Translations under genes and position numbers: made by a program
The notes under the pieces: model-generated
What the model was told of the DNA's origin: nothing
The model's database searches: none
What the model saw: only the letters and a program-made list of their open reading frames with translations
Assembly: GCF_011927725.1 (NCBI RefSeq)
Contig: NZ_JAATJC010000001.1
Span: 2,611,001-2,675,000, forward strand
DNA length: 64,000 nt
Direction: 5' to 3'
DNA from: Sphingomonas kaistensis
Lineage (GTDB): Bacteria; Pseudomonadota; Alphaproteobacteria; Sphingomonadales; Sphingomonadaceae
Shown here: piece by piece, positions 58,174 to 61,149 of the stretch
How the letters are laid out: each line of letters starts with the position of its first letter
Position numbering within the stretch: the first letter of the stretch is position 1

Positions 58174-58617
58174 ATGTCCGTCGGCACCCGCCTTCTCGCG
58201 ATCCGCGATACGCGACTGGCGCAGAGCCTGCTGTTCGGGCTTGGCCTGTTCCTGATGTTCGTCGCCGCGCCGCTGGCCAGCCCCCTTCCCGGCCCAGGCG
58301 GGCTTGTTATCGCCGCGGCCGGGCTGACCCTGGTCCTGCGCACCAGCCTGTGGGCCAAGCGCCGCTACGTCCGGTTCAAGCGCTGGCAGCCACGAGCGGG
58401 AAGCTGGTTCGATTGGGGCCTGCGCCGCGGCAGTGCGCGCCGCCGCGAGGCGCTGCGCAAGGAACGCGAGCGGCAGGAGGCCCCACCCCCTTCCGAAGTC
58501 CCGCGGATCGACGACCCGCTGCCCAAGGCCGGGCTGGAGATCATGCCGATCGACCCGACCCCCTCGGAGGTCGTTCCGGCGGAACCGCCCGTCGCCGACG
58601 AAGCCTCGCGGCATTGA
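58174..58617 (+). CDS. PGPGW-like small membrane protein
   Basis: A 147-residue protein with two close hydrophobic helices, SLLFGLGLFLMFVAAPLASPL and GLVIAAAGLTLVLRTSLW, joined by PLPGPGG, the feature of PGPGW-type putative transmembrane proteins. A Lys/Arg-rich stretch (KRRYVRFKRW...RRREALRKERERQ) and a Pro/Glu-rich tail follow. The ATG at 58174 is preferred over an upstream in-frame start because the residues before it look non-coding. Function unknown. A hairpin with a T-run lies about 40 bases downstream. Confidence 0.72.
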   Translation: MSVGTRLLAIRDTRLAQSLLFGLGLFLMFVAAPLASPLPGPGGLVIAAAGLTLVLRTSLWAKRRYVRFKRWQPRAGSWFDWGLRRGSARRREALRKERERQEAPPPSEVPRIDDPLPKAGLEIMPIDPTPSEVVPAEPPVADEASRH

Positions 58618-58658
58618 CTTGGGAGCCCGCCTTGCGTAACGGCCCCCCCAAGCAATGC

Positions 58659-58690
58659 GGCTGCCCCTGATTGGGCGGCCCTTTTTGTTC
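58659..58690 (+). terminator. Intrinsic terminator or attenuator before rpmH
   Basis: GGCTGCCC-ctgatt-GGGCGGCC forms an 8-pair stem (one G-T pair) followed at once by CTTTTTG, a standard Rho-independent terminator for the PGPGW-like gene. A possible -35 (TTGACT at 58614-58619) precedes the hairpin, so if rpmH is transcribed from there the hairpin would act as an attenuator within its leader. Confidence 0.7.
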
Positions 58691-58704
58691 TTAACTCGAA
58701 GGCC

Positions 58705-59169
58705 ATGAGCGATGAAGCGCACTTTCCAGCCCAGCAATCTCGTCCGCAAGCGGCGTCACGGCTTCCGCACGCGTTCGGCGACGGTGGGCGGCCGCAAGGT
58801 GCTGGCGGCTCGTCGCGCCCGCGGCCGCAAGAAGCTCAGCGCTTAATCACCCTCAAGAAGCGCGCCGATTTCCTGGCCGCGAACAGCGGCCGACGCGCTC
58901 CGATGCCCGGTTTCGTCCTGCTGGTCCGCCCCCGTGGCGACGGTGAGCAGGCGATGCGCATCGGCTATACCGTCAGCAAGAAGGTCGGCAACGCGGTTGT
59001 TCGCAACCGCATGAAGCGGCGCCTGCGCGCGCTCGCCGCCGAACTGCTGCCCGTGGCGGGGATCCTAGGTGCCGACCATGTGCTGATCGGGCGCCAAAGC
59101 GGGATCGAGCGCGATTATGCGCTGCTCCGTTCCGAACTGACCAAGGCGCTGGCCAAGGTTGCCCGGTGA
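58705..59169 (+). CDS. rnpA: Ribonuclease P protein component; start unresolved, frame overlaps all of rpmH
   Basis: The protein subunit of RNase P, which helps the catalytic RNA mature tRNA 5' ends. The conserved core begins at [17 protein letters not shown] and includes [25 protein letters not shown] (the RNR motif) and [10 protein letters not shown]. No ATG, GTG or TTG lies between 58708 and this core. Two explanations fit: initiation at the ATG at 58705, giving 154 residues with rpmH nested inside, or a rare ATC start at 58846 that overlaps the rpmH stop (TAATC), giving 107 residues. A base error in the sequence is a third possibility. The stop overlaps the yidD start by three bases. Confidence 0.9.
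58712..58846 (+). CDS. rpmH: 50S ribosomal protein L34
   Basis: A 44-residue ribosomal protein, translated by hand: [20 protein letters not shown], then [24 protein letters not shown], matching the family over its full length. GAAGG lies 9 bases before the ATG. An in-frame-shifted ATG seven bases earlier opens the rnpA frame, which runs through this whole gene in another phase. Together with rnpA, yidD and yidC this is the classical order of many bacteria. Confidence 0.97.
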
Positions 59170-59378
59170 TCGCGCGCCTCCTGATCCTGGCGGCGCGTGG
59201 CTGGCAATTGGGCCCAAGCGCGATCCTGCCCCCTTCCTGCCGATTCACGCCGTCCTGCTCGGCCTATGCAATCACCGCCTGGAGCCGCTATGGGGCCCTG
59301 CGCGGAAGCTGGCTGGCCCTGAGGAGGATCGGCCGCTGCCATCCCTGGGGGGGCCAGGGTCACGATCCGGTCCCGTGA
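59166..59378 (+). CDS. yidD: Membrane protein insertion efficiency factor YidD
   Basis: A 70-residue YidD, a small amphipathic protein that assists YidC-dependent insertion. It shows [34 protein letters not shown] with the conserved CRFxPSCSxY, and [15 protein letters not shown] with its third Cys. The GTG at 59166 overlaps the rnpA stop. The family Tyr in CRYYPTCS is replaced by Phe-Thr here, within normal variation. Confidence 0.94.
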
Positions 59379-59412: not shown

Positions 59413-61149
59413 GTGAGCGACGATACCCGCAACATGATCCTCGCCATCGTGCTGAGCGCCGCTGTGCTGCTCGGCTGGGGGCTGCTGTCCGAGCGATTCT
59501 TCCCGACGCCCAAGCCGGCGGTCACGGCGACCAGGAACGGCGCTCCGGCACCGGCTCCGGCGGCCCAGACCCCCGGCGCTCCAGCCGCCGCGACGGCACC
59601 CGCGCTGTCCCAGGCCCAGGCCCTGCAGGGCGTCCCCCGGGTCAGGATCGCCACGCCCAATCTCACCGGCTCGCTCAGCCTCAAGGGTGCGACGTTCGAC
59701 GACCTGCGGATGGTCAATCAGACCGACCGAGTCGGCCGGAATGCGCAACCCGCCCGCCTGCTCAGCCCGGCCGGCGCGAACGGCGCCTATTTCGCGCGCT
59801 TCGGCTGGACCGGACAGGGCGTTGCGGTGCCGGATGCCAACTCCGTCTGGACCCCGAGCGCCCCGACGCTCGCCCCGGGCAAGCCCGTCACGCTGAGATG
59901 GACCAACCCGACCGGTCAGCGCTTCGAGCTGATCGTCGCCGTCGACGATGGCTATCTGTTCACCGTCACCCAGCGTGTTTCGAACCTCGCCGGCGCTCCG
60001 GTCGCGGTGCGTCCGTTCGGCTTGCTCAGCCGCGCCAACGCCGGTCCCGACGCCAAGTCGGATGGCTGGACGCATCACGTCGGCCCGATGACCGTGATCG
60101 ACGGCAGGTCCGATTATGACGTCAATTACGGCACGCTCGACGAGGAAGGCTCCAAGCGCTTCGCCGGCAACAGCGGCTGGGTCGGCTTTACCGACAAATA
60201 TTGGCTGACTGCGCTGGCTCCGGCCGGCAACACCCCGCTCAACGCCAGCCTGCGCCGCGGCCAGGGCACCAGCTACCAGGCCGACTACGCGCTCGAGCCG
60301 ACTATTGTCGCGCCGGGCCGGGCCACGCAGGCCACCACCCACCTGTTCGCCGGTGCCAAGGAAAAGAAGTGGCTCGACGCCTATGAGGCTTCGGGCGCGG
60401 TTCCGGTGATCTCCGACTCGATCGACTGGGGCTGGTTCGAGTTCGCCATGCGGCCGATCTTCGCGCTGCTGATCTGGCTGTTCCACGCCATCGGCAACTT
60501 CGGCTGGGCGATCATCGCGCTGACCTTCATCGTCCGCCTGCTGATGTACCCGATCTTCGACCGCCAGTTCCGCTCGATGGCGGGGATGCGGGCGATGCAG
60601 CCCAAGATGAAGGAGCTGCAGGAGCGTCACAAGGACGACAAGACCAAGATGCAGCAGGAGCTGCTCGAGCTGTACAAGCGCGAGAAGATCAATCCCGCCG
60701 CCGGCTGCCTGCCGATCCTGATCCAGATCCCGGTCTTCTATGCGCTCTACAAGGTGCTGACGGTGACGGTGGAGATGCGCCACCAGCCGTGGGAGCTGTG
60801 GATCAAGGACCTCTCCGCGCCCGACCCGCTGACCCCGGTCAACCTGTTCGGGCTCTTGAACTTCGATCCGCCAGGCCTGCTTCACCTCGGCGTGCTTCCG
60901 ATCCTGCTCGGAATCACCATGTGGCTGCAGTTCCGCCTCAACCCGGCGCCGATGGACGATATCCAGAAGCAGATCTTCTCGATCATGCCGTGGGTGATGA
61001 TGTTCGCCATGGCGCCGTTCGCCGCCGGCCTGCAGCTCTACTGGGTGGTGTCCAACCTCCTCGGCATCGCGCAGCAGAAGTATCTCTACTCCAAATATGA
61101 TGCGGAGAAGATCGCGGCGCGCGCCGGTGTGGCGACGGCGAAGACCTGA
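59413..61149 (+). CDS. yidC: Membrane protein insertase YidC
   Basis: A 578-residue proteobacterial YidC. An N-terminal anchor helix (MILAIVLSAAVLLGWGLL) leads to an Ala/Pro-rich linker, the periplasmic beta-super-sandwich domain (about 70-340), and the conserved five-helix insertase core (about 350-565) with YPIFDRQFRSMAGMRAMQPKMKELQERH (coiled hairpin) and NPAAGCLPILIQIPVFYALYKVL. The GTG at 59413 is the only suitable start. Its last base overlaps the engB ATG. Confidence 0.96.
   Translation: MSDDTRNMILAIVLSAAVLLGWGLLSERFFPTPKPAVTATRNGAPAPAPAAQTPGAPAAATAPALSQAQALQGVPRVRIATPNLTGSLSLKGATFDDLRMVNQTDRVGRNAQPARLLSPAGANGAYFARFGWTGQGVAVPDANSVWTPSAPTLAPGKPVTLRWTNPTGQRFELIVAVDDGYLFTVTQRVSNLAGAPVAVRPFGLLSRANAGPDAKSDGWTHHVGPMTVIDGRSDYDVNYGTLDEEGSKRFAGNSGWVGFTDKYWLTALAPAGNTPLNASLRRGQGTSYQADYALEPTIVAPGRATQATTHLFAGAKEKKWLDAYEASGAVPVISDSIDWGWFEFAMRPIFALLIWLFHAIGNFGWAIIALTFIVRLLMYPIFDRQFRSMAGMRAMQPKMKELQERHKDDKTKMQQELLELYKREKINPAAGCLPILIQIPVFYALYKVLTVTVEMRHQPWELWIKDLSAPDPLTPVNLFGLLNFDPPGLLHLGVLPILLGITMWLQFRLNPAPMDDIQKQIFSIMPWVMMFAMAPFAAGLQLYWVVSNLLGIAQQKYLYSKYDAEKIAARAGVATAKT

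Follow-up and report, generated by a model that had tools for sequence, protein, structure and literature searches.

The locus examined here raises the question of where translation of rnpA begins. In the ordinary bacterial rpmH-rnpA pair, rnpA has its own start codon after the rpmH stop, unlike the arrangement described below. The window, which is the whole 64,000-nucleotide stretch of Sphingomonas kaistensis DNA that was analysed, comes from a genome that is assembled as a single contig of 2.85 Mb and is 99.99% complete. Within it, rpmH (58712-58846), the RnpA domain, yidD (59166-59378) and yidC (59413-61149) follow one another on the + strand, which carries every feature described in this study, and this order is the same as that of the ordinary pair. 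The 44-amino-acid product of rpmH is recognized as ribosomal protein L34 by PF00468 (77 bits; cut-off 25) and TIGR01030 (73.9; cut-off 37.65), and RnpA is recognized by PF00825 (74.5 bits; cut-off 22.3) and TIGR00188 (55.4; cut-off 38.35), all above the curated cut-offs. The RnpA core domain (58846-59166) begins at an ATC codon at 58846, whose A also completes the rpmH stop codon TAA (TAATC), and a protein counted from this codon has 107 amino acids. The initial annotation of this DNA proposed either that rpmH lies entirely inside a longer rnpA, as in Thermus, or that rnpA uses the ATC as its start, provided that the ATC is not a misread ATG.

The RnpA-domain frame is free of stops from 58618 to 59169, and a scan of this frame from the upstream stop to the RNase P core confirmed the initial observation that ATG 58705 is its sole ATG, GTG or TTG codon. 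This ATG lies exactly 7 nucleotides ahead of the rpmH ATG (position -7 hereafter). Both codons stand behind one GAAGG, a common Shine-Dalgarno-like site (58698-58702) whose end is 2 nucleotides before the rnpA ATG and 9 nucleotides before the rpmH ATG, again exactly as first described. Read from 58705, rnpA (58705-59169) encodes 154 amino acids and encloses the whole of rpmH in the other frame. The N-terminal extension over rpmH (58705-58845), which had been estimated at about 47 residues, comprises exactly 47, rich in Pro, Ala, Arg, Gly and Gln, and PF00825 spans residues 48-152 of the 154. On the evidence given below, we estimate at roughly 0.93 the probability that rpmH is wholly nested in rnpA and that RnpA is read from ATG 58705.

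To place this arrangement among its relatives, rpmH loci were drawn from the same genus, from named public genomes, from the order and from the class, and L34 and RnpA were positioned by profile search. The same-genus, order and class sets were found via L34. The named set consists of the best 80 matches by RnpA-core similarity to the window's own core and is therefore biased towards nested relatives. A total of 254 loci were collected, 248 of them distinct and carrying both genes. Two fragments were left out (L044, without L34, and L248, without RnpA), as were the duplicates L005, L047, L049 and L217. The family was assigned as Sphingomonadaceae, with same-genus loci L029 and L006 being identical to the Sphingomonas records L047 and L049. 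The 201 distinct loci of this family comprise 66 from the same genus, 77 from the named set and 58 from other genera; the named loci L084, L095 and L110, whose titles bear no sphingomonad name, were counted in the family by similarity. Of the 71 same-genus genomes, 4 gave no L34 match. The other families of the order contributed 47 loci taken from 81 matched genomes, and the class survey, from which G226 and G266 were left out, contributed 58 scored loci after RnpA was not found at 4 of 62. A locus was called nested if it has an ATG at -7, an RnpA core in the frame of that ATG, and a frame that is open from -7 to the core.

An ATG resides exactly at -7 in 151 of the 201 Sphingomonadaceae loci. 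The RnpA core is in the frame of this ATG, and the frame is open throughout, at 148 of these 151 loci, compared with the one third expected by chance. Nesting was thus scored at 63/66 loci of the same genus, 72/77 named loci and 13/58 loci from other genera of the family, and the extension measures 47 codons in all 148. None of the 63 nested same-genus loci has an ATG, GTG or TTG between the rpmH stop and the core, and in 52 of them the whole stretch between -60 and the core contains no such codon besides the -7 ATG. Loci that are not nested look different in this respect: among the 45 from other genera of the family, none has an ATG at -7, and 40 have a start codon near the core. Two loci show start-codon variants at the -7 place, namely TTG in L243, which has no later start, and GTG in L153. 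A start codon near the core is also present in 32 of the 148 nested loci, so internal RnpA starts are possible there; 22 of these 32 codons have no Shine-Dalgarno match. The proposal of Thermus-like full nesting is therefore backed by comparison within the family, and the comparison of rnpA starts across the order that had been suggested as a check gave 148/201 for Sphingomonadaceae and 0/47 for seven other families.

Several features that accompany nesting carry less information than they appear to. Openness of the frame over rpmH says little on its own, because 45 of 53 non-nested Sphingomonadaceae loci are also stop-free across this GC-rich gene. The spacers between the rpmH stop and the core at the 148 nested loci have 17 different lengths, from 0 to 111 nucleotides, with the frame kept in all, but multiples of three and the absence of stops follow from the definition of nesting, and the independent fact is the agreement at 148 of 151 loci. 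The same dependence on the definition applies to the lack of T at stop-risk third positions (0/805 in nested loci) and to the stops found in 44 spacers (538 codons per frame: 0 in the rnpA frame vs 12 and 6 in the other two); these zero counts are informative only because no locus of the family with a -7 ATG and an in-frame core was closed. The third frame across rpmH is closed at all 248 loci, likely because the Met-Lys opening (ATG, then AAA or AAG) invariably contains a TGA shifted by one base. What points to nesting is that exact position, frame and lack of alternative starts coincide. Additional information comes from fourfold-degenerate sites, where the divergence of rpmH relative to that of the rnpA core in the same pairs is 0.60-0.80 for nested loci and 0.87-0.93 for non-nested loci. 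The lower value is in the direction expected if a second frame is translated, and codon bias or GC content may contribute to it.

Among the alternatives, the ATC start fares best, and we nevertheless regard it as very unlikely. In this case, ribosomes terminating at the rpmH stop would reinitiate within TAATC and produce the 107-amino-acid protein, which agrees with the core beginning at the ATC and with this near-cognate codon overlapping the stop. However, the codon is not conserved. At the 57 of 63 nested same-genus loci whose core abuts rpmH, it is GTC in 16, ATC in 15, ACC in 7, GTT in 4, ATT in 3, AGC in 3 and others in 9. At 14 of the 57, the stretch between the end of rpmH and the fourth core codon contains no near-cognate start codon. 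Since the codon varies and these 14 lack any near-cognate, an ATC start is not shared across the group, and it would leave the exact -7 ATG in the frame of the core unexplained.

It is hardly probable that selection on the rpmH leader has produced the -7 ATG incidentally, with RnpA starting at varied, unrecognized sites. An ATG at -7 without nesting does occur at 4 of the 47 loci from other families of the order, and openness alone is common. Against this stand the 0/45 count for non-nested loci from other genera of the family and the agreement in frame at nearly all loci that possess the -7 ATG. There is a similarly slim chance that a -1 frameshift late in rpmH joins L34 to RnpA in one fusion protein. 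The rnpA frame is indeed the -1 frame of rpmH, with no intervening stop, but such a fusion would not depend on the -7 ATG or on the 5' part of rpmH being open in this frame, and yet both are kept, and inspection by eye revealed no classical slippery heptamer at the end of rpmH. Finally, the suspicion that the ATC is a sequencing error for an ATG, leaving rnpA with an ordinary separate start, found no supporting point and has negligible probability given the single-contig, nearly complete genome and the 63 nested same-genus loci that likewise lack ATG, GTG or TTG between the rpmH stop and the core. The initial annotation had also named close relatives with a normal ATG at this place and a closed frame over rpmH as evidence that would speak against nesting; the same-genus relatives keep the frame open and have no ATG there.

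If RnpA is read from ATG 58705, one transcript and one Shine-Dalgarno-like site would serve two AUGs that are 7 nucleotides apart. The majority of ribosomes would initiate at the downstream, well-spaced AUG to yield L34. A minority would start from the upstream AUG, translate the same 135 nucleotides in the other frame into the 47-residue tail and go on to the RNase P protein, and their translation would continue into yidD, whose GTG start overlaps the rnpA stop (GTGA). An exact ATGA or GTGA is present at the rnpA/yidD junction in 58/63 same-genus and 66/72 named nested loci. A Shine-Dalgarno match is in the expected place at 93 of the 148 nested loci, with spacings of 4-9 nucleotides to rpmH and -2 to 2 nucleotides to rnpA, such that the rnpA AUG is unusually near this site. 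The other nested loci either have no match of 4 nucleotides (40/148) or have only a probably spurious TGAT (15). By the general spacing rules for initiation, rpmH should take most initiations and rnpA should be started at a lower rate. Because the common site stands at a favourable distance from the rpmH AUG but lies too near the rnpA AUG, L34 output probably exceeds RnpA output. We infer that initiation occurs at 58705, that poor spacing keeps the RnpA yield low, and that the two starts are mutually exclusive. A lower rnpA rate would fit the expectation that ribosomes outnumber RNase P, and the nested starts may in this way control the L34/RNase P ratio, as was initially suggested.

A precedent exists in Thermus, whose rnpA-rpmH overlap was reportedly described by Feltens et al. 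in PNAS in 2003. According to a later article (PMC9841429), Thermus rpmH is nested out of frame in rnpA, the two genes share one Shine-Dalgarno sequence, their starts form 5'-AUGGAUG-3', and both are expressed; this was the only described case before that article's own examples. The sphingomonad locus resembles the Thermus locus in that rpmH is wholly inside rnpA, the rnpA start comes first, one Shine-Dalgarno sequence is present and the AUGs are only a few nucleotides apart (PMC9841429). The frame relation is also the same, as the offsets of 4 in Thermus and 7 here are both 1 modulo 3. The two systems differ, by the same account, in the arrangement of the starts (ATG-N4-ATG with offset 7 here, AUGGAUG with offset 4 in Thermus), in phylum, and in the Shine-Dalgarno sequence, which in sphingomonads lies nearly in contact with the rnpA AUG. 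In Thermus, both proteins are reported to be expressed, whereas in sphingomonads their production from one site is predicted from sequence. The same article describes ambiguous AUGUG and GUGUG sites of E. coli, which likewise open two frames from one initiation region; there the start codons overlap, whereas here their offset is 7 nucleotides and each frame encodes a conserved housekeeping protein (PMC9841429).

These comparisons suggest that sphingomonad nesting is Thermus-like, of a kind that is very rare, and apparently convergent. No paper on nested rpmH and rnpA in sphingomonads was found within the limited literature collection searched. The long form of RnpA is already annotated, since public databases contain 154-residue entries (for example, P0009 from Sphingomonas humi). 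The same gene pair appears to be nested in the same way in a lineage distant from Thermus and in many species, cultured strains included. This opens testable questions, including how ribosomes are split between the two starts, what makes this particular pair nest, and whether anything depends on the L34/RNase P ratio. There are also practical consequences: RnpA would be annotated too short if its start were placed within the core, and it would be altered by any recoding or tagging of rpmH.

Nesting appears to be widespread in one family, encompassing much but not all of Sphingomonadaceae, as it is missing from 45 of the 58 loci from other genera. When scored for an ATG at -7, nesting was absent from all 47 loci of the seven other families of the order and from all 58 loci of other alphaproteobacterial families in the class survey; none of these 58 has an ATG at that position. 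In the class survey, the frame across rpmH is open at 8 of 58 loci, and all 8 also have an ATG, GTG or TTG near the core. That neither the sister families nor the remaining class sample showed nesting favours an independent origin from that in Thermus, with which the comparison was made by description. Within the family, a short-protein tree (FastTree, 215 rows) requires 8 changes between the nested and non-nested states. A tree of a 75-row subset, from which L020, L060, L222 and L243 were left out, requires 4, and the AU test does not reject a single clade of its 43 nested rows (p-AU 0.445). Two loci outside the family have an in-frame upstream ATG and an open frame over rpmH, with ATGs at -13 in L205 and at -16 and -13 in L269, along with start codons after rpmH; separate nesting with a different offset is possible at these loci.

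Three loci of the family have the -7 ATG yet are not nested. In L020 (genome G028), an insert of ~270 nucleotides with perfect 25-nucleotide inverted ends lies between rpmH and the core and closes the -7 frame; it carries an in-frame ATG ahead of the core, behind GAGGAGG. A second copy of this insert was not found in its genome, and our suggestion that the insert is mobile is a guess. In L060, a stretch of ~140 nucleotides at the corresponding place has a perfect 23-nucleotide inverted repeat, closes the -7 frame, and contains an ATG in frame with the core without an evident Shine-Dalgarno sequence. In L222, the -7 frame passes rpmH, enters the core and breaks inside it, which may reflect an assembly fault; this genome is 86% complete. 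Separately, four related loci (L038, L040, L048 and L079, two of which carry the title Rhizorhabdus) lack a start at -7 although their frame is open, and their rnpA start is likely a GTG located 152 nucleotides after the rpmH ATG.

Upstream of the nested starts, the window contains promoter-like boxes (58614-58642) consisting of TTGACT (58614-58619), 17 nucleotides and TAACGG (58637-58642). Between these boxes and the starts is a terminator-like hairpin with a T-run (58659-58686), which is a candidate attenuator. An Rfam search gave no relevant match for the hairpin, and its covariation is weak, with a double change in 3 of 6 pairs in one sequence each. In the leader counts, from which one same-genus locus was left out as too short, the hairpin and T-run were found at 60/65 same-genus loci (2.6 in shuffled sequences), 73/77 named loci (2.8), 39/58 loci from other genera of the family (1.6) and 2/47 loci from other families of the order (~0.4). 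We tentatively offer a broader scheme, doubtful as a whole, in which nesting arose independently of Thermus and both starts draw on a single ribosome site in competition with each other, with RNase P protein being made as a fixed small fraction of L34 initiations. In combination with the family-specific hairpin, a leader of this kind would couple the processing of tRNAs to the making of ribosomes. The 47-residue tail would have come about as a by-product of the L34 code and may since have acquired a function. The promoter-like pattern TTGACN-N16-18-TAN4 is present upstream of rpmH at 200/200 Sphingomonadaceae loci scored and at 44/47 loci from other families of the order. In the window, the TTGACT box overlaps the stop codon of an upstream frame of 167 amino acids.
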